This document shows, one piece after another, positions 10,200 to 37,958 of a stretch of 64,000 nucleotides of DNA. The notes beneath the pieces are model-generated. The model was not told where the DNA came from, did not search any database, and worked only from the letters and a program-made list of their open reading frames with translations. The stretch lies in NCBI GenBank assembly GCA_016218685.1, contig JACRDD010000035.1, positions 30,994-94,993 on the forward strand, in the 5' to 3' direction. The DNA comes from Desulfobacterales bacterium. GTDB lineage: Bacteria; Desulfobacterota; Desulfobacteria; Desulfobacterales; Desulfosarcinaceae. Position 1 is the first letter of the stretch; every line of letters begins with the position of its first letter. A program made the translations under genes and the position numbers.

Positions 10200-10907
10200 T
10201 CATGAGCGGATGAAGCACTGCGCTACGATTGGCGCGGCGACCGTCTTGAGCTGTTCCATTTCGGAAGGGGTAAATCCGGGGGCCTGGCTGGCCAAAAAGA
10301 CGGGGTCCAGCAGGGAAACGTCCCGAAAAGGTTGCAAGACATAGCGGCGGGCGCCTTGGATGGCCTGGGCGATATTTATAATGATGTTCGCGTCCACGAA
10401 AGGCCGCACGCAGGTGGTGCGAAATTCATGATCCAGGCCGCTGGTCATGATCAGGTGGATGCTGCGGCGCAGGCTGGCGCGAATGGGCCCCGCCTCTTCG
10501 GCCGCCACCAGGGGCGGGCCATAATGGGATAGATCCGTTTTGAGGTCCATGGCGATGTAGTCGAGCAGGCCCTCCTCGATCAAGCGGGCCAGCACCTCCG
10601 GCCGGCTGCCGTTGGTGTCCAGCTTGACCGATAGGCCCATTTCGCGAATGGCGCGGCACAGCGTTGCCAGGCCCGGGGAGAGGGTGGGTTCGCCGCCGCT
10701 GATTACGACCCCGTCGAGCAGCATGCGCCGAGGTTCCAGAAACGCCAAGAGCTGGTCCAGGGTGATCCGCTGGGGAAAGCGGCCCCGGGCCAGCTCAGGA
10801 TTGTGACAGAAAGGGCAGGTGAAGTTGCAGCCGGTGACGAAGACCACGCAACTGATCTTGTCGGGAAAGTCGATGAGCGAGGTCTTCTGTATACCGGCCA
10901 GGATCAT
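10200..10907 (-). CDS. nrdG: Anaerobic ribonucleotide reductase activating protein (radical SAM)
   Basis: This 235-residue radical-SAM activase installs the glycyl radical on NrdD using S-adenosylmethionine and a 4Fe-4S cluster. The cluster motif is C27-x3-C31-x2-C34 (GCNFTCPFC), followed by SGGEPTLSP, the SAM-contacting GGE motif. It begins 9 bases after the nrdD stop on the same strand, so the two are one operon. The protein is of the longer type found with deltaproteobacterial nrdD and is oxygen-sensitive, so it marks an anaerobic life style. Confidence 0.92.
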   Translation of the reverse strand: MILAGIQKTSLIDFPDKISCVVFVTGCNFTCPFCHNPELARGRFPQRITLDQLLAFLEPRRMLLDGVVISGGEPTLSPGLATLCRAIREMGLSVKLDTNGSRPEVLARLIEEGLLDYIAMDLKTDLSHYGPPLVAAEEAGPIRASLRRSIHLIMTSGLDHEFRTTCVRPFVDANIIINIAQAIQGARRYVLQPFRDVSLLDPVFLASQAPGFTPSEMEQLKTVAAPIVAQCFIRS

Positions 10908-10916
10908 GGAACCGTG

Positions 10917-13130
10917 TCAGCGCGAAGCGGCGCCGGCCAGTTCGCGCAGGGGCGCCTCGGCCGGCGTTGAACTTGGCTCCCGTTGGGCCGGCGGCTGTGG
11001 CGCCTTGGCCACCACGGTGACGCTCAGCTCCGGGTCCACCGATTCCACGCGATAGGTCTTGCGCAGGGCATACTCGGCCTGCTTGCCGTCGTTCCACTGC
11101 TTCACCGGCCGCAGGTAGCCCACCACCCGGGAGTAAATTTCGGTCTCCTGGCTGCACTGCGGGCAACGTACCTGTTCGCCCCGCAGGTAGCCGTGGGAGG
11201 GGCAGATGCTGAAGGTGGGGGTCAAGGTGAAGTAGGGCAGGCGATAGTTGGAAGCGATCTTGCGCACCAGGGATTTGACCGCCTGGATGCTGCCGAGCTG
11301 CTCGCCCAAAAAGACGTGCAGCACCGTGCCGCCGGTGTATTTGGTCTGTAGATGGTCCTGGAGCTGAAAAGTCTGGTACAGATCGTCGGTGTAGTTGACC
11401 GGCAGTTGGGTCGAATTGGTGTAGTAAGGCGCGGCGCCCTTACGGAATTCGGATTCGTTGGAGCAGATGATGGCACCGTGGCGCTTCTTGTCCAGCATGG
11501 CCAGGCGGTAGGAGGTGCCCTCGGCCGGCGTGGCTTCCAGGTTGAAGATGTCGCCGGTTTCGTCCTGCACCTTGGCCAGCAGGTCGCGCAGATAGTCCAT
11601 CACCCGCAGGGCAAAGGCTTGGCCTTCCATGGTGCCGATGTCCTTGCCCATGAAGTTGAGGCACGCTTCGTTCATGCCGATGATGCCGATGGTGGAAAAA
11701 TGGTTCTTCCAGTAGGTGCCGCTGCCCTGTTTGACCTCGCGCAGGTAGAAGCGCGAGTAGGGGTAGAGATTTTTTTCGGTGAATTTTTCCAGCACCTTGC
11801 GCTTTATGATCAGGCTCTCCACGGCCAGGCGCACCTTGCTTTCCAACCGATCGAAGAAATCCTTCTCGCCTTCGGCCTCGTGTCCGATGCGCGGCAGGTT
11901 GATGGTCACCACGCCGATCGATCCGGTGAGCGGGTTGGCGCCGAACAGGCCGCCGCCGCGCTTGAGCAGTTCGCGGTTGTCCAGGCGCAGCCGGCAGCAC
12001 ATGGAACGTGCATCCTCGGGCGACATGTCGGAGTTGACGAAGTTGGAGAAGTAGGGGATGCCGTATTTGGCCGTCATCTGCCACACCAGATCCAGGTTGG
12101 GATTGTCCCAGTCGAAATCCGGGGTGATATTATAGGTGGGAATGGGAAAGGTGAAGACCCGTCCCTTGGCGTCACCGGCCATCATCACGTCGGCAAAGGC
12201 CCGGTTGATCAGGTCCATTTCGGGCTGGAAGCCGGCATAGGTTTCGTCCAGCTCCCGGCCGCCCACGATCACCGGATGGTCCTTGAGGATCGAGGGCACG
12301 CACAGGTCCATGGTGATGTTGGTAAAGGGGGTCTGAAAGCCCACCCGGGTGGGGATGTTGATGTTGAAGATAAACTCCTGCAAGGCCTGTTTGACCTTGT
12401 CGTAGCTCAGGTGGTCGTAGCGCACGAAGGGCGCCAGCAAGGTGTCGAAATTGGAAAGCGCCTGGGCGCCGGCGGCCTCGCCCTGCAACGTATAGAAGAA
12501 GTTGACGATCTGGCCCAGGGCCGAGCGCAGGTGCTTGGGCGGTGCGCTCTCCACCTTGCCTTCCACGCCCTTGAAGCCGTTTTTCAGCAAGTCTTTCAGG
12601 TCCCAGCCCACGCAGTAGACCGAGAGCAGGCTCAGGTCGTGGATGTGCATATCGCCATCCTTGTGGGCCTGGCGAATCTGGGGCGGGTAGATCTTGTTGA
12701 GCCAATATTCGGAGGTCACATCCGAGGAGATGTAGTTGTTCAGGCCCTGCAGCGAGTAGCACATATTGCTGTTCTCTTTGATCTTCCAATCCTGGCGCTG
12801 GATATAATGATCCACCAGCTCCACGTTGGCCTTGGTGGTGATGCTGCGGATCTGGGCGTGCTGCTCGCGGTAGAGAATGTAGGCCTTGGCCGTGCGGTGA
12901 TAAGTAGATTCGAGCAATACATGTTCGACGATGTCCTGGACCTCTTCCACCTCGGGCTGGGACCCCAGGCGCAGTTCGTGGGCCAGGGTCAGGACGCGCA
13001 GGGTCAGCTTGCGCGCTTCGCGCTCGGAAAATTCGCCCGTGACTTGGCCGGCCTTGGCGATGGCGGCCGTGATCTTGGTGGAATCGAACTCGACGATGCG
13101 TCCATCTCTTTTCTTGATTTGTTCAAACAC
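10917..13130 (-). CDS. nrdD: Anaerobic (class III) ribonucleoside-triphosphate reductase
   Basis: The 737-residue glycyl-radical enzyme reduces ribonucleotides to deoxyribonucleotides without oxygen. An ATP-cone allosteric domain occupies about residues 3-95 (IKKRDGRIVEFDSTKITAAI). The C-terminal zinc site appears as CPSHGYLRGEQVRCPQC and the radical loop as SRVVGYL, with the glycine near residue 671. After that the protein carries an unusually long Ala/Pro-rich tail of about 45 residues. The start is GTG at 13130, seven bases after AAGGAG. It is divergent from nrdJ across a region with NrdR-box-like sites and co-directional with nrdG. Confidence 0.95.
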   Translation of the reverse strand: MFEQIKKRDGRIVEFDSTKITAAIAKAGQVTGEFSEREARKLTLRVLTLAHELRLGSQPEVEEVQDIVEHVLLESTYHRTAKAYILYREQHAQIRSITTKANVELVDHYIQRQDWKIKENSNMCYSLQGLNNYISSDVTSEYWLNKIYPPQIRQAHKDGDMHIHDLSLLSVYCVGWDLKDLLKNGFKGVEGKVESAPPKHLRSALGQIVNFFYTLQGEAAGAQALSNFDTLLAPFVRYDHLSYDKVKQALQEFIFNINIPTRVGFQTPFTNITMDLCVPSILKDHPVIVGGRELDETYAGFQPEMDLINRAFADVMMAGDAKGRVFTFPIPTYNITPDFDWDNPNLDLVWQMTAKYGIPYFSNFVNSDMSPEDARSMCCRLRLDNRELLKRGGGLFGANPLTGSIGVVTINLPRIGHEAEGEKDFFDRLESKVRLAVESLIIKRKVLEKFTEKNLYPYSRFYLREVKQGSGTYWKNHFSTIGIIGMNEACLNFMGKDIGTMEGQAFALRVMDYLRDLLAKVQDETGDIFNLEATPAEGTSYRLAMLDKKRHGAIICSNESEFRKGAAPYYTNSTQLPVNYTDDLYQTFQLQDHLQTKYTGGTVLHVFLGEQLGSIQAVKSLVRKIASNYRLPYFTLTPTFSICPSHGYLRGEQVRCPQCSQETEIYSRVVGYLRPVKQWNDGKQAEYALRKTYRVESVDPELSVTVVAKAPQPPAQREPSSTPAEAPLRELAGAASR

Positions 13131-13300: not shown

Positions 13301-13330
13301 CTGTTACCCCAATCGTCTGTTGGCTGTCAA
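13301..13330 (-). promoter_or_regulatory. Possible promoter for nrdDG
   Basis: A perfect TTGACA on the minus strand (13325-13330) is followed after 18 bases by TAACAG, a weak -10. The leader to the nrdD GTG would be about 165 bases. It is back-to-back with the nrdJ promoter, 36 bases away. Confidence 0.4.
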
Positions 13331-13340
13331 TGGAAAATTT

Positions 13341-13356
13341 CTACAAAATGTAGTCG
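13341..13356. promoter_or_regulatory. NrdR-box-like site 1
   Basis: CTACAAAATGTAGTCG matches 10 of 16 positions of the NrdR box as I recall it (acaCwAtATaTwGtgt), including every strongly conserved core position (C-w-A-x-A-T-x-T-w-G). Its centre is exactly 31 bp from that of site 2, the usual spacing of paired NrdR boxes. Confidence 0.6.
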
Positions 13357-13366
13357 AAATTTCCTG

Positions 13367-13396
13367 TTGACACACAACATCTTGTGAGAATACAAA
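13367..13396 (+). promoter_or_regulatory. Sigma70-like promoter for nrdJ
   Basis: TTGACA (13367-13372) followed after 18 bases by TACAAA (13391-13396). NrdR-like site 2 fills the spacer, so repressor binding would block RNA polymerase. The expected start near 13403 leaves a leader of about 155 bases. Confidence 0.6.
13372..13387. promoter_or_regulatory. NrdR-box-like site 2
   Basis: ACACAACATCTTGTGA matches 13 of 16 positions of the recalled NrdR consensus and lies between the -35 and -10 of the nrdJ promoter. nrdR itself is present at 36403. Confidence 0.7.
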
Positions 13397-13560: not shown

Positions 13561-16065
13561 GTGGGTCGTAAAGCCAAACTAATTGAAACCAAGGAAGGCG
13601 TCATCGACATGGCGACCTATAGCTGGGATGACGAGCGTTTCTCCCGGGTCCTGATGGCGCAGCATCCCATGGACAACCAACAAGCCACCGCCATCAGCCG
13701 CTTTGTGCGCGAGGCCATCGAAGAGCTGAAAATTCACCGTGTCACCTCGCCCGTCGTGGAGGCCGTGGTCAAGGCCACCCTGGAAGAGCACGGCGTATCC
13801 AAACCCGTGGAGGTGCCGGTGAACAAATCGCTCTTCGTGCGCAACGGCCTGCATTTATCGGACAATGCCCGCATCGTGCTCGAACGGCGCTACCTGCGCA
13901 AGGACCCCAGCGGCAAGCCCCTGGAAAAACCCGGCCAGATGTTCCGCCGCGTGGCCCGCCACATCGCCCAGGCCGAGCTCAAGAGCGATCCCAACGCCGA
14001 CACCCAGGCCGTGGAAGAGCAGTTCTACGAACTCATGACCGATCTGAAATTTTTGCCCAACTCGCCGACCCTGATGAACGCCGGCCGCCGTTTGGGCCAG
14101 TTGGCCGCCTGTTTCGTGCTGCCGGTGGAAGACAGCATGGAGGCCATTTTCGACACCTTGAAAAATGCCGCGGTGATCCACAAGTCGGGCGGCGGCACCG
14201 GCTTTTCCTTCTCGCGCCTGCGGCCCAAGAACGCCATGGTGGGGACGACCGGCGGCGTGGCTTCCGGGCCGGTCTCGTTCATGAAGATCTTCAACACCGC
14301 CACCGAGCAGGTCAAGCAGGGCGGCACCCGCCGCGGGGCCAACATGGCCATCTTGCAGGTGGACCACCCGGACATCATGGAGTTTATTTTCTGCAAGCAG
14401 CGCAACGACGAGCTGAACAACTTCAACATCTCCGTGGGCGTCACGGATGCCTTCATGCAGGCCGCGCTGGCTGGCGCCAGCTATGACCTGATCGACCCTT
14501 CCACGCGCCAGGTCACCGGCTCCCTGGAGGCTGCCGCGGTTTACACGGCCCTGGTGCAGCAGGCCTGGAAGAACGGCGATCCGGGCATTGTCTTTCTGGA
14601 CCGCATGAATCGGGACAACCCCACGCCGGCCCTGGGCGCCATCGAAAGCACCAATCCGTGCGGCGAGCAGCCGCTGCTGCCCATGGAGGCCTGCAACCTG
14701 GGCTCGATCAACCTGGCGCGCTGCGTGACCATTGAGGGCGAGGCGGCGCGCATCGACTACGACGAACTGGGCCGGGTGGTGCACAGCGCGGTCCATTTCC
14801 TGGACAACACCATCGACATGTCCAAATATCCCCTCAAAGCCATCGAGGCCATGGTCAAAGGCAATCGCAAGGTGGGCCTGGGGGTCATGGGCTTTGCCGA
14901 CCTGCTCTACCTGCTGAAAATTCCCTACAACTCCGAAGCGGCCCTGGCCGTGGCCGACGAGCTGATGCACTTTATCCAGGACGAGGCCCATGCCGCCTCC
15001 CGGGCCCTGGCCGAAAAGCGGGGGGCCTTCCTCAACTTCGACCAGAGCATTTATAGTGAGAAGGGTGAGGCGCCCTTGCGCAACGCCACCCTGACCACCA
15101 TCGCCCCCACCGGCACCCTGAGCATCATCGCCAACTGCTCCAGCGGCATCGAGCCGCTTTTCGCCCTGAGCTTCGTGCGCAACGTGATGGACAATGACCG
15201 CCTGCTGGAGGTCAATCCGATCTTCGAGGCCGTGGCCAAGGCGCGTGGCTTTTACTCCCGGGAGCTGATGGAGACCATCGCCCAGCAGGGCTCGCTCCGG
15301 CACGTCGAGGGCATTCCCGACGATGTCAAGACGGTCTTCGTCACGGCCCATGACGTCGCGCCCGAATGGCACCTGCGCATGCAGGCCGTCTTCCAGAAGC
15401 ACACCGACAACGCCGTCTCCAAGACGGTGAACCTGCCCCGTGACGCCACGGCTGAAGATGTGCGCAAGATCTACGACCTGGCCTATCAATTGGGCTGCAA
15501 GGGCGTGACCATCTACCGCGATGGCAGCAAAGCGAACCAGGTGCTCTCCACCGGCGCCACCGGCGCCACGGCCAGCGAAAAAGCGGCCGAGGCCCACGAA
15601 ATCGCCATGCGCGAACGGCCCGAGACCCTGGAGGGCTTCACCACCAAGACCCGCACCGGCTATGGCCATCTGTACGTTACGGTTACCGAATTCAACGGCC
15701 GGCCCTTCGAAGTCTTCGCCACCATCGGCAAATCTGGCCGTTCGACCACCGCCAAGACCGAGGCCATCGGCCGGCTGGTCTCCCTGGCCCTGCGCTCGGG
15801 AGTGGAAGTCAAGCTGATCGTGGACCAGCTCAAGGGCATCGGCGGCGAACATCCGATTTTTCAAGAAGGCGGGCTGGTGCTCTCGATCCCCGACGCCATC
15901 GCCCGGGTGCTGGAACGGCGCTACCTGCTCAAAAACGGCGATGTCCAGAAAAGTGCGCCGGGCAAAAGCCTGATGGGCGCCACCTGTCCCGAATGCGGCC
16001 AGACCATCAGCTTCGAGGAGGGGTGCCAGACCTGCCACTTTTGCGGCTACACCAAGTGCGGGTAA
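13561..16065 (+). CDS. nrdJ: Adenosylcobalamin-dependent (class II) ribonucleotide reductase
   Basis: This enzyme reduces ribonucleotides using coenzyme B12, so it works with or without oxygen. Visible signatures are the finger-loop region ESTNPCGEQPLLPMEACNLG, the nucleotide-binding NSPTLMNAGRRLGQLAACFV, and a C-terminal Cys-rich zinc tail (CPECGQTISFEEGCQTCHFC). The track start (13384) lies ahead of the predicted transcription start; GTG 13561 with ACAGGAG about eight bases upstream is my choice, giving about 834 residues. ATG 13609 is the alternative. It is divergent from nrdDG and ends before a strong terminator. Confidence 0.93.
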   Translation: MGRKAKLIETKEGVIDMATYSWDDERFSRVLMAQHPMDNQQATAISRFVREAIEELKIHRVTSPVVEAVVKATLEEHGVSKPVEVPVNKSLFVRNGLHLSDNARIVLERRYLRKDPSGKPLEKPGQMFRRVARHIAQAELKSDPNADTQAVEEQFYELMTDLKFLPNSPTLMNAGRRLGQLAACFVLPVEDSMEAIFDTLKNAAVIHKSGGGTGFSFSRLRPKNAMVGTTGGVASGPVSFMKIFNTATEQVKQGGTRRGANMAILQVDHPDIMEFIFCKQRNDELNNFNISVGVTDAFMQAALAGASYDLIDPSTRQVTGSLEAAAVYTALVQQAWKNGDPGIVFLDRMNRDNPTPALGAIESTNPCGEQPLLPMEACNLGSINLARCVTIEGEAARIDYDELGRVVHSAVHFLDNTIDMSKYPLKAIEAMVKGNRKVGLGVMGFADLLYLLKIPYNSEAALAVADELMHFIQDEAHAASRALAEKRGAFLNFDQSIYSEKGEAPLRNATLTTIAPTGTLSIIANCSSGIEPLFALSFVRNVMDNDRLLEVNPIFEAVAKARGFYSRELMETIAQQGSLRHVEGIPDDVKTVFVTAHDVAPEWHLRMQAVFQKHTDNAVSKTVNLPRDATAEDVRKIYDLAYQLGCKGVTIYRDGSKANQVLSTGATGATASEKAAEAHEIAMRERPETLEGFTTKTRTGYGHLYVTVTEFNGRPFEVFATIGKSGRSTTAKTEAIGRLVSLALRSGVEVKLIVDQLKGIGGEHPIFQEGGLVLSIPDAIARVLERRYLLKNGDVQKSAPGKSLMGATCPECGQTISFEEGCQTCHFCGYTKCG

Positions 16066-34631: not shown

Positions 34632-35873
34632 TTGAACAACGAGCTTATCGCCACAGTGGATCCTGAAATCGCCAAAGTACTGGATCAGGAGTTGGAACGG
34701 CAGACCAGTCACCTGGAACTGATTGCATCGGAAAACATCGCCAGCAAGGCGGTCATGGCCGCCCAGGGCAGCCTTTTGACCAACAAATACGCCGAGGGCT
34801 ACCCCGGCAAGCGCTACTACGGCGGGTGCGAATATGTGGACGTGGCCGAACGCCTGGCCATTGAGCGCGCCATTCAGTTGTTCGGCTGCGAGTATGCCAA
34901 CGTGCAGCCCCACTCCGGCTCCCAGGCCAACATGGCCGCCTATTTTTCCCTGCTCCAGCCGGGCGACACCGTGCTGGGCATGGACCTGGCCCACGGCGGC
35001 CATCTGACCCACGGCGCCAAGGTGAGTTTTTCAGGCCAACTCTATCGCTTCGTACATTACGGGGTTAACCCGCAGACCGGCACCATCGACTATGACAACC
35101 TGCGGCGCCTGGCCAAGGAGCATCGTCCAAAGATGATCGTGGCCGGCGCCAGTGCCTATCCGCGCATCTTGGATTTCGACACCTTCAGCGACATCGCCAA
35201 GGAAGTGGGCGCCCTCTTCATGGTGGACATGGCCCACATCGCCGGCCTGGTAGCCGTGGGGCTGCATCCCTCGCCGGTGCCCCGGGCCGATGTGGTCACC
35301 TCCACGACCCACAAAACCCTGCGCGGGCCGCGCGGCGGATTGATCCTGGCCAAGTCGGCCTGCGGCGACAAGCTGCGCGCCGAGGTCTTTCCGGGCATCC
35401 AGGGCGGGCCTTTGATGCACGTGATCGCCGCCAAGGCCGTGGCCTTCAAGGAGGCGTTGCAGCCCTCGTTCAAGCGTTACCAGGAGCGCGTGCTGGCCAA
35501 TGCCCAGGCCCTGGCCGCCGGGTTGCAAAGCGCCGGCTTGCAACTGGTCTCCGGCGGCACCGACAACCACCTGATGCTGGTGGACCTCACCTCATGGGAC
35601 ATCACCGGCAAAGCGGCCGAAACCTCCCTGGGCCAGGCCGGTATCACCGTAAACAAAAATGCCGTGCCCTTCGACAAACGCGGCCCGGTGGTGACCAGCG
35701 GCGTGCGCATCGGAACCCCCTATGTCACCAGCCGCGGCATGGGCACCGAAGAGATGCGCCAGATCGCCGGGCTGATCGTGGCCGTGCTCAAAAACATGGA
35801 AGATGCGCGCATCTTGGAGCGGACGCGACTGGAAGTGGCCGAATTGTGCCGCGCTTTCCCACTCTACGCATAA
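34632..35873 (+). CDS. glyA: Serine hydroxymethyltransferase
   Basis: A 413-residue PLP enzyme converting serine and tetrahydrofolate to glycine and methylene-tetrahydrofolate. Signatures: [14 protein letters not shown], the PLP lysine in [16 protein letters not shown] and [15 protein letters not shown]. The start is TTG 34632, preceded by AAGGGGAAAG. It supplies one-carbon units for thymidylate, in keeping with the dCMP deaminase and nrdR beside it. Confidence 0.96.
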
Positions 35874-35932
35874 GCCGCTGGGTGGGTGAACGTTGAAAGT
35901 TAAGCAGTTCCGGCGATTGGAGGAGGATGTAA

Positions 35933-36406
35933 ATGGATCGTGAGCGCCCCTCCTGGGACGAGTACTTCATGGACATCACCTGCCTGGTGGCCAAGCGGGC
36001 CACCTGCCTGCGCCGGGCCGTGGGGGCGGTGGTGATCAAGGACCGCCGCCTGCTCTCCACCGGATATAACGGCGCGCCCAGCAACGTGCGCCACTGCGCC
36101 GAGACCGGCTGCCTGCGCCAACAGCTCAACGTGCCCTCGGGCGAGCGCCATGAGTTGTGCCGGGGCATTCACGCCGAGCAGAACGCCATCATCCAGGCGG
36201 CCTATCACGGTGTCTCCATCAAGGGTGCCACGCTCTACTGCACCAATCAGCCCTGTTCCATTTGCGCCAAGATGATCATCAACGCGGGGATTGTCCGGAT
36301 CGTCTACCAGGACGGCTACGCGGACCCGCTGTCCACGGAAATGCTGGCCGAAGCCGGCATCGAACTGCTGAAACTGGCTGGCAACCAAGGGGAGGTGTCT
36401 GCATGA
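35933..36406 (+). CDS. comEB: Deoxycytidylate deaminase (ComEB family)
   Basis: A 157-residue zinc deaminase making dUMP from dCMP for thymidylate synthesis. Zinc and catalytic residues are in GIHAEQNAI and [12 protein letters not shown]; the insert [18 protein letters not shown] is typical of dCMP deaminases. GGAGGATGTAA precedes the ATG. Its stop overlaps the nrdR start (ATGA), so the two are translationally coupled. Confidence 0.93.
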
Positions 36407-36861
36407 AGTGTCCTTTCTGTGGCGAGATGGACAACAAGGTGATCGACTCCCGGGTGAGCAAGGACGGCGCCGTCATCCGGAGGCGCAGGGAGTGCATCGA
36501 CTGCACCCGACGGTTCACCACTTACGAGCACATCGAAGAGATTCCCATCATGATCGTCAAAAAGGACGGTCGCCGGGAGGTGTTCAACCGCGACAAGGTG
36601 CGCTCGGGGATGCAGAAGGCCTGCCAGAAACTGGACATCAGCATGAACGCCATCGAGGATTTCATCGACGACCTGGAGCGGGACCTGCGCGAAACCGGCG
36701 AAAAAGAGATTCCGTCCCGGGTGGTGGGTGAGAAGATCATGGCCCAGCTTCACACCTTGAGCGATATCGCCTACGTGCGCTTCGCTTCGGTGTACCGTGA
36801 ATTCAAGGATGTGAACGATTTTGTGGCCGAACTGAAAACCTTACTAAGCGAACGGCGATGA
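36403..36861 (+). CDS. nrdR: Transcriptional repressor of ribonucleotide reductase genes
   Basis: A 152-residue NrdR: an N-terminal zinc ribbon [17 protein letters not shown] and [15 protein letters not shown], then an ATP-cone domain ([19 protein letters not shown]) that senses ATP/dATP. It binds NrdR boxes in front of nrd operons. The start overlaps the comEB stop; the track's longer frame is an out-of-gene extension. Box-like sites occur in this window between nrdD and nrdJ, which are its likely targets. Confidence 0.97.
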
Positions 36862-37958
36862 ACGATGAAGACTACATGGACATGGCCTTGGAACTCGCGG
36901 CCCAAGGGGCCGGCTTTGTCGCTCCCAACCCTATGGTGGGGGCCGTGGTGGTGCGGGATGGTCAGGTGGTGGGCCAGGGCTTTCACCAGGCCGTGGGCGG
37001 AGCCCATGCCGAGGTAAATGCCCTCGATGCCGCCGGTGAGCGTGCCGTCGGCGCCACCTTGTACGTGACCCTGGAACCGTGCAACCATTTCGGCCGCACG
37101 CCGCCCTGCACCGAAAAGGTGCTGGCCGCCGGCATCCGGCGGGTGGTGGTGGCCATGGCCGATCCCAACCCCGACGTCCGGGGCGGCGGCAATGAGATGC
37201 TGCGCGCCAAGGGGATCGAGGTGGTCTGCGGGGTGCGCGAGGCCCAAGCCCGGCGGCTGAACGAGAGCTTCATCAAGTTTGCGGCCACCAAGCGTCCGTT
37301 CGTGGTGCTCAAAATGGCCGCCACCCTGGATGGACGCATCGCCGCCAGCACGGGCGATGCCCGCTGGGTAACCGGCGAAGCGGCCCGGGCGCACGTGCAT
37401 CGTCTGCGCCACGCCATGGACGCCATTCTGGTGGGGGTCGGCACGGTCAAGGCCGACGATCCCGAACTGACGGCGCGCCTGGTCGAGGGCCAGGGCAAGG
37501 ACCCCATCCGGTTGGTGCTCGACACCCGGCTGAGCATGTCCAAGCGCGCCAAGGTGCTCACCCAGGCCTCCACGGCGCCCACCTATGTGGTGTGCGGACC
37601 CGAGGCCTCGGATGTGGACCGGCGCCGGCTATCGGCCAGCGGCGCGCGCATTCTGGACGCCGCCGTCCGAAAGGGGCACATCGATCTGGCGGCCCTCATG
37701 GGGCAGTTGGGCAAGATGGGCATCACCAGCCTGCTCATTGAAGGCGGCGCCCAGGTGGCCGGCAGCGCCCTGGCCACCGGTATCGTGGACAAGGTCGTGT
37801 TCTTCTACGCCCCCAAGCTGCTCGGCGGCGACGACGGCACGCCCATGTTCCGCGGCCAAGGAGCCGCTTGGATGAAGGATGCCCTCGCCCTGCACGATGT
37901 GACGGTGGCGCGGGTAGGCGAAGATATTATGGTGGTCGGGTATCGGCATAAGGGATAG
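36858..37958 (+). CDS. ribD: Bifunctional riboflavin biosynthesis deaminase/reductase
   Basis: A 366-residue two-domain enzyme. The N-terminal deaminase has AHAEVNALDAAG and EPCNHFGRTPPC (zinc ligands); the C-terminal reductase has LKMAATLDGRIA and LLIEGGAQVAGS. Together they carry out the second and third steps of riboflavin synthesis. The start codon overlaps the nrdR stop (ATGA), coupling the genes. No FMN riboswitch was seen upstream. Confidence 0.96.
   Translation: MNDEDYMDMALELAAQGAGFVAPNPMVGAVVVRDGQVVGQGFHQAVGGAHAEVNALDAAGERAVGATLYVTLEPCNHFGRTPPCTEKVLAAGIRRVVVAMADPNPDVRGGGNEMLRAKGIEVVCGVREAQARRLNESFIKFAATKRPFVVLKMAATLDGRIAASTGDARWVTGEAARAHVHRLRHAMDAILVGVGTVKADDPELTARLVEGQGKDPIRLVLDTRLSMSKRAKVLTQASTAPTYVVCGPEASDVDRRRLSASGARILDAAVRKGHIDLAALMGQLGKMGITSLLIEGGAQVAGSALATGIVDKVVFFYAPKLLGGDDGTPMFRGQGAAWMKDALALHDVTVARVGEDIMVVGYRHKG

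Follow-up and report, generated by a model that had tools for sequence, protein, structure and literature searches.

The window analysed here is a 64-kb stretch of a Desulfatitalea-type metagenome-assembled genome (assembly 3.8 Mb, 64.6% complete), whose nearest NrdJ record, from WY2.bin100, is 99% identical, other near records being named Desulfatitalea. It carries ribonucleotide reductase (RNR) genes of two classes and the gene for NrdR, a known repressor of RNR genes, and NCBIfam and Pfam matches bear out the identities that a preliminary description had assigned to nrdDG, nrdJ and nrdR:

10200-10907, minus strand: nrdG, class III RNR activase of the NrdG2 type (TIGR02495, 203 bits)
10917-13130, minus strand: nrdD, class III anaerobic ribonucleotide reductase with an N-terminal ATP-cone (NF006126, 1088 bits; PF13597, PF03477)
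13561-16065, plus strand: nrdJ, class II B12-dependent ribonucleotide reductase, GTG start (NF006417, 1209 bits; TIGR02504, 721 bits)
36403-36861, plus strand: nrdR, repressor with Zn-ribbon and ATP-cone (TIGR00244, 205 bits; PF22811, PF03477)

The nrdDG genes (10200-13130, minus strand) and nrdJ (plus strand) diverge, and the "opposite directions" of the preliminary description hold for transcription only; nothing predicts that nrdD and nrdJ are regulated oppositely. Read from its translation, the NrdR protein combines the Zn-ribbon and ATP-cone with the DNA-contact residues D15, R17 and R26-R29 (RRRR). Its gene lies immediately after a dCMP deaminase-type ORF and before a ribD-like ORF (window 34632-37958), with a glyA-like ORF at 34632-35873, all named from their translations. 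The same genome holds a second, more distant class II RNR gene (G000:C8:56377, L197; 62% identity over 180 aa); no NrdR pair was detected in the upstream stretch examined, and we rejected NrdR control of this paralogue on that ground. A B12 riboswitch or another RNA element in the leader of nrdJ was likewise rejected, Rfam giving no match at E values as high as 1, as was a competing class I RNR, whose small subunit had no match in the genus or in 32 relatives, the window genome itself being just 64.6% complete.

Between nrdD and nrdJ lie two candidate promoters and the NrdR elements discussed below. Boxes were scored with a 16-bp position weight matrix (PWM) trained on 38 boxes from the nrdD upstream regions of species of other genera; the genus itself contributed no sequence. 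The boxes have no assigned strand, and the promoter elements are read from the sequence:

13301-13306, minus strand: nrdD -10-like hexamer TAACAG, 18-bp spacer; a TAAC/TAAT-type hexamer is retained in most relatives
13307-13322: former position of the nrdD inner box (D-in), CCCCAATCGTCTGTTG, in the nrdD -35/-10 spacer; box lost, PWM -11.1 bits
13325-13330, minus strand: nrdD -35, TTGACA, present in all 16 nrdD promoters compared
13338-13353: middle box in the nrdD register, core CTACAAAATG, 31 bp from the nrdD inner position and shifted 3 bp from 13341-13356; weak, PWM 4.5 bits
13341-13356: middle NrdR box (J-out, the upstream member of the nrdJ pair), CTACAAAATGTAGTCG, flanked by the two -35 elements
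13367-13372, plus strand: nrdJ -35, TTGACA; in relatives TTGAC is equally placed relative to J-in
13372-13387: nrdJ inner NrdR box (J-in), ACACAACATCTTGTGA, inside the nrdJ -35/-10 spacer
13391-13396, plus strand: nrdJ -10-like hexamer TACAAA, 18-bp spacer; a weak match

A generic sigma-70 scan listed neither promoter, both -10 hexamers being weak. The preliminary description had placed two NrdR-type boxes at 13341-13356 and 13372-13387, with centres 31 bp apart, one within the -35 and -10 of nrdJ and the other just upstream of the nrdD -35, and the coordinates, the spacing and the placement relative to the promoters as read from the sequence are all right. Both sites are palindromic 16-bp boxes that match the core CWANATNTWG, with its conserved C and G, in full. 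J-in scores 20.2 bits, the highest in the 64-kb window, and is the sole site genome-wide within one mismatch of the full consensus; the middle box scores 10.9 bits (rank 3 in the window), departs from the consensus outside its core, and shares that core with G010 and G006. Together they sum to 31.0 bits against 12.4 for the runner-up pair in the window, and when the intergenic region was dinucleotide-shuffled 2000 times no shuffle attained that sum, the highest reaching 18.8 bits. Genome-wide, where we matched patterns rather than the PWM (whose ranks refer to the 64-kb window), no other pair at a 31-bp offset in the 3.8 Mb assembly has a perfect core or just one core mismatch. The matrix check proposed in the preliminary description thus came out in favour of the boxes, and both sites are confirmed as convincing predicted NrdR boxes.

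Published work has the NrdR tetramer, in its dATP- and ATP-loaded form, binding to two boxes and bending the DNA by about 90 degrees at each (PMC9110341); both boxes are needed, and spacers of 14-17 or 24-27 bp are tolerated (PMC12051234). With both boxes present, a spacer of 15 bp (three helical turns centre to centre) and J-in lying within the predicted nrdJ promoter, the pair fits the published NrdR rules fully for nrdJ. For nrdD the result is different. A canonical target would have a pair to itself, with the -35 between a box in the -35/-10 spacer and a second box farther upstream, and the window genome lacks this arrangement: a complete second pair was rejected, just the two boxes already described exceeding 7 bits upstream of nrdD. 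The middle box favours the nrdJ register (10.9 bits) over the nrdD register (4.5 bits), so its sharing with nrdD is positional, and since it is the sole NrdR element near nrdD and lies 10 bp upstream of the nrdD -35, any control of nrdD by NrdR would be indirect. The idea that the boxes are common to both promoters thus stands in part: real boxes do lie between the two, but as judged from its registers the pair is a canonical operator of nrdJ, not one jointly owned with nrdD.

Comparison with relatives, the second check that had been proposed, also supports the boxes. An NrdR pair with an offset of 30-32 bp occurs in 30/30 nrdD upstream regions recovered across the order, some of these pairs belonging to nrdJ, and nrdR was detected in 59/60 genomes of relatives. 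With the nrdD -35 as reference point, 22/30 have the standard nrdD pair, in which one box lies within the -35/-10 spacer and its partner immediately upstream of the -35; this pair is missing from G012 and G018 as well as from six species with a compact layout, described below. Within the family nrdJ, too, has a pair upstream in most cases, with J-in in the promoter spacer and a usually weaker J-out upstream of the -35. In 11 congeners the pair pattern, with up to 1 mismatch, occurs in 27 places, against 1 for a reversed control pattern. Strong pairs of 28-35 bits also lie away from nrdD and nrdJ in congeners (G009:C21:6074-6114, L149; G001:C12:67876-67916, L151; G007:C12:13066-13106, L153) and are possible further NrdR targets. 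In G012 and G018 (L027/L034) the nrdD inner box is lost and two strong boxes lie upstream of the nrdD -35, 42 and 41 bp apart, their 26- and 25-bp spacers corresponding to the four-turn spacing known from Streptococcus, and nrdJ retains a 32-bp pair; as predicted sites, these show that nrdD is able to keep a pair elsewhere after D-in is lost.

Within Desulfatitalea the two genes are arranged in two ways. Five congeners have separate nrdD and nrdJ pairs: G001, G002, G008 and G009 are divergent with four boxes, and in G007 the genes lie about 50 kb apart with one pair each. Four-box divergent regions also occur in family members such as G017, G022, G023, G024 and G028, and in such regions the outer boxes are 55-221 bp apart. 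Six congeners (the window genome, G010, G006, G003, G004 and G005) are compact, with a single middle box and a -35 to -35 distance of 39-42 bp, compared with 94-261 bp in G001, G002, G008 and G009. The middle box fits both registers in G003, G004 and G005, that is, the outer boxes coincide; the window genome, G010 and G006 have in the middle a 13-bp palindrome, CTACAAAATGTAG, with two overlapping cores 3 bp apart, perfect in the nrdJ register and with two mismatches in the nrdD register. At the D-in position the score is -11 to -24 bits in 6/6 compact species versus 15-18 bits in the five with separate pairs, yet the compact species retain the nrdD -35 TTGACA and a -10-like TAAC/TAAT/TAGC hexamer.

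How might such a region work? The reading that we favour, with moderate confidence, is a compacted divergent control region, with canonical repression of nrdJ by NrdR and, at most, an indirect or weak effect on nrdD. A tetramer of NrdR with dATP and ATP would sit on the middle box and J-in, three helical turns apart, and cover the nrdJ -35/-10 spacer, so that abundant dATP would shut down the class II enzyme. Originally there would have been two full pairs, one for each gene; the intergenic DNA would then have contracted until the outer boxes coincided, after which D-in was lost and the nrdD -35 and -10 were kept. Because D-in is gone while these promoter elements remain, we expect NrdR to exert just a weak control over nrdD, by way of a tetramer about 10 bp upstream of the nrdD -35 that would bend the DNA there. 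We infer, in short, that NrdR binds here, represses nrdJ and has a weakened hold on nrdD.

Loss of D-in need not end control of nrdD, and a tetramer near the -35 might still repress well. A true shared operator, which comes close to the idea of the preliminary description, would carry this furthest: one tetramer on both boxes would repress nrdJ directly and nrdD about equally, the latter through the DNA that it covers or bends just upstream of the nrdD -35, and one pair would do the work of two. The middle box, 10 bp from the edge of the nrdD -35, is indeed near the site of the nrdD outer box in relatives, the outer boxes coincide in G003, G004 and G005, and NrdR bends DNA sharply at each box (PMC9110341). 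However, in the window lineage the middle box has shifted 3 bp into the nrdJ register, leaving 4.5 bits in that of nrdD, and none of the six compact species retains the box within the nrdD core promoter; we regard equal repression as rather unlikely. At the other extreme, nrdD may have escaped NrdR fully in the compact species, with nrdJ alone controlled and its closeness to nrdD incidental. In favour of this, D-in is lost, the spacer sequence has diverged and the -35 and -10 are retained, but in G003, G004 and G005 the outer box still occupies the nrdD-register position, albeit one that nrdJ needs too, and an NrdR pair at nrdD is otherwise the rule across the order, so full escape also seems improbable to us, if only slightly more so. 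That both sites are functionless chance AT-rich palindromes is very hard to credit: the middle site by itself ranks just third in the window, but chance is ruled out by the shuffles and the genome search, and the boxes are kept across the order.

Another question is how often the compact arrangement arose. In NrdD, NrdJ and rpoB trees the compact species fall in three places, with backbone branches that are seldom supported. A single clade of compact species, a group defined in these tests by the compact trait and not by the tree, was rejected by rpoB plus NrdD proteins (p-AU 0.011) but not by rpoB DNA alone (p-AU 0.11). With rpoB plus NrdD proteins, joining G003/G005 with the window group was also rejected (p-AU 0.028), whereas G004 with G003/G005 was allowed (p-AU 0.355). 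Given the rejection of the single clade at p-AU 0.011, the fusion probably arose at least twice, though counts of this kind leave room for a single gain and subsequent losses. Had an ancestral fusion re-expanded later, boxes would have had to be regained, which we consider less likely.

Parts of this arrangement have parallels in known NrdR systems. The nrdRJ and nrdAB pairs of Streptomyces coelicolor share the 10-bp core with conserved C and G, the 31-bp offset, a class II target and an NrdR with D15, R17 and the RRRR motif, but there each operon has its own pair, whereas in the window the pair lies between divergent RNR promoters, one of which is without its pair (PMC9110341). In Pseudomonas aeruginosa one NrdR serves class II and class III genes (nrdJ and nrdDG, besides nrdAB), a feature that the window may share; there, two boxes accompany each separate promoter and a shared intergenic operator is not described (PMC4409342). 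The three boxes of Streptococcus pneumoniae nrdHEF and the two pairs of Listeria monocytogenes nrdAB resemble the window in that box number is not one plain pair per promoter and spacing follows whole helical turns; all of those boxes serve one promoter, whereas here the boxes of two divergent promoters appear to have merged (PMC12051234). We found no description of a divergent or shared NrdR operator in the literature searched, which was mostly without subscription papers, and this absence is weak evidence.

In conclusion, the nrdD-nrdJ region combines a well-known type of repressor and operator with a new arrangement of promoters. We tentatively propose, as a possibility that we hold at less than even, that in Desulfatitalea divergent NrdR operators collapsed onto a single middle box in at least two independent fusions, D-in being lost in each; a two-gene regulon that had been balanced would thereby have become asymmetric, with class II sensing dATP via NrdR and class III largely not. 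The genus offers a one-operator evolutionary series, from separate pairs through fusion with coinciding outer boxes to fusion with a 3-bp shift, that lends itself to questions about the number of NrdR boxes required at a promoter, repression by a tetramer adjacent to the -35, and the way in which two RNR classes split control in an anaerobe where no class I enzyme was detected.
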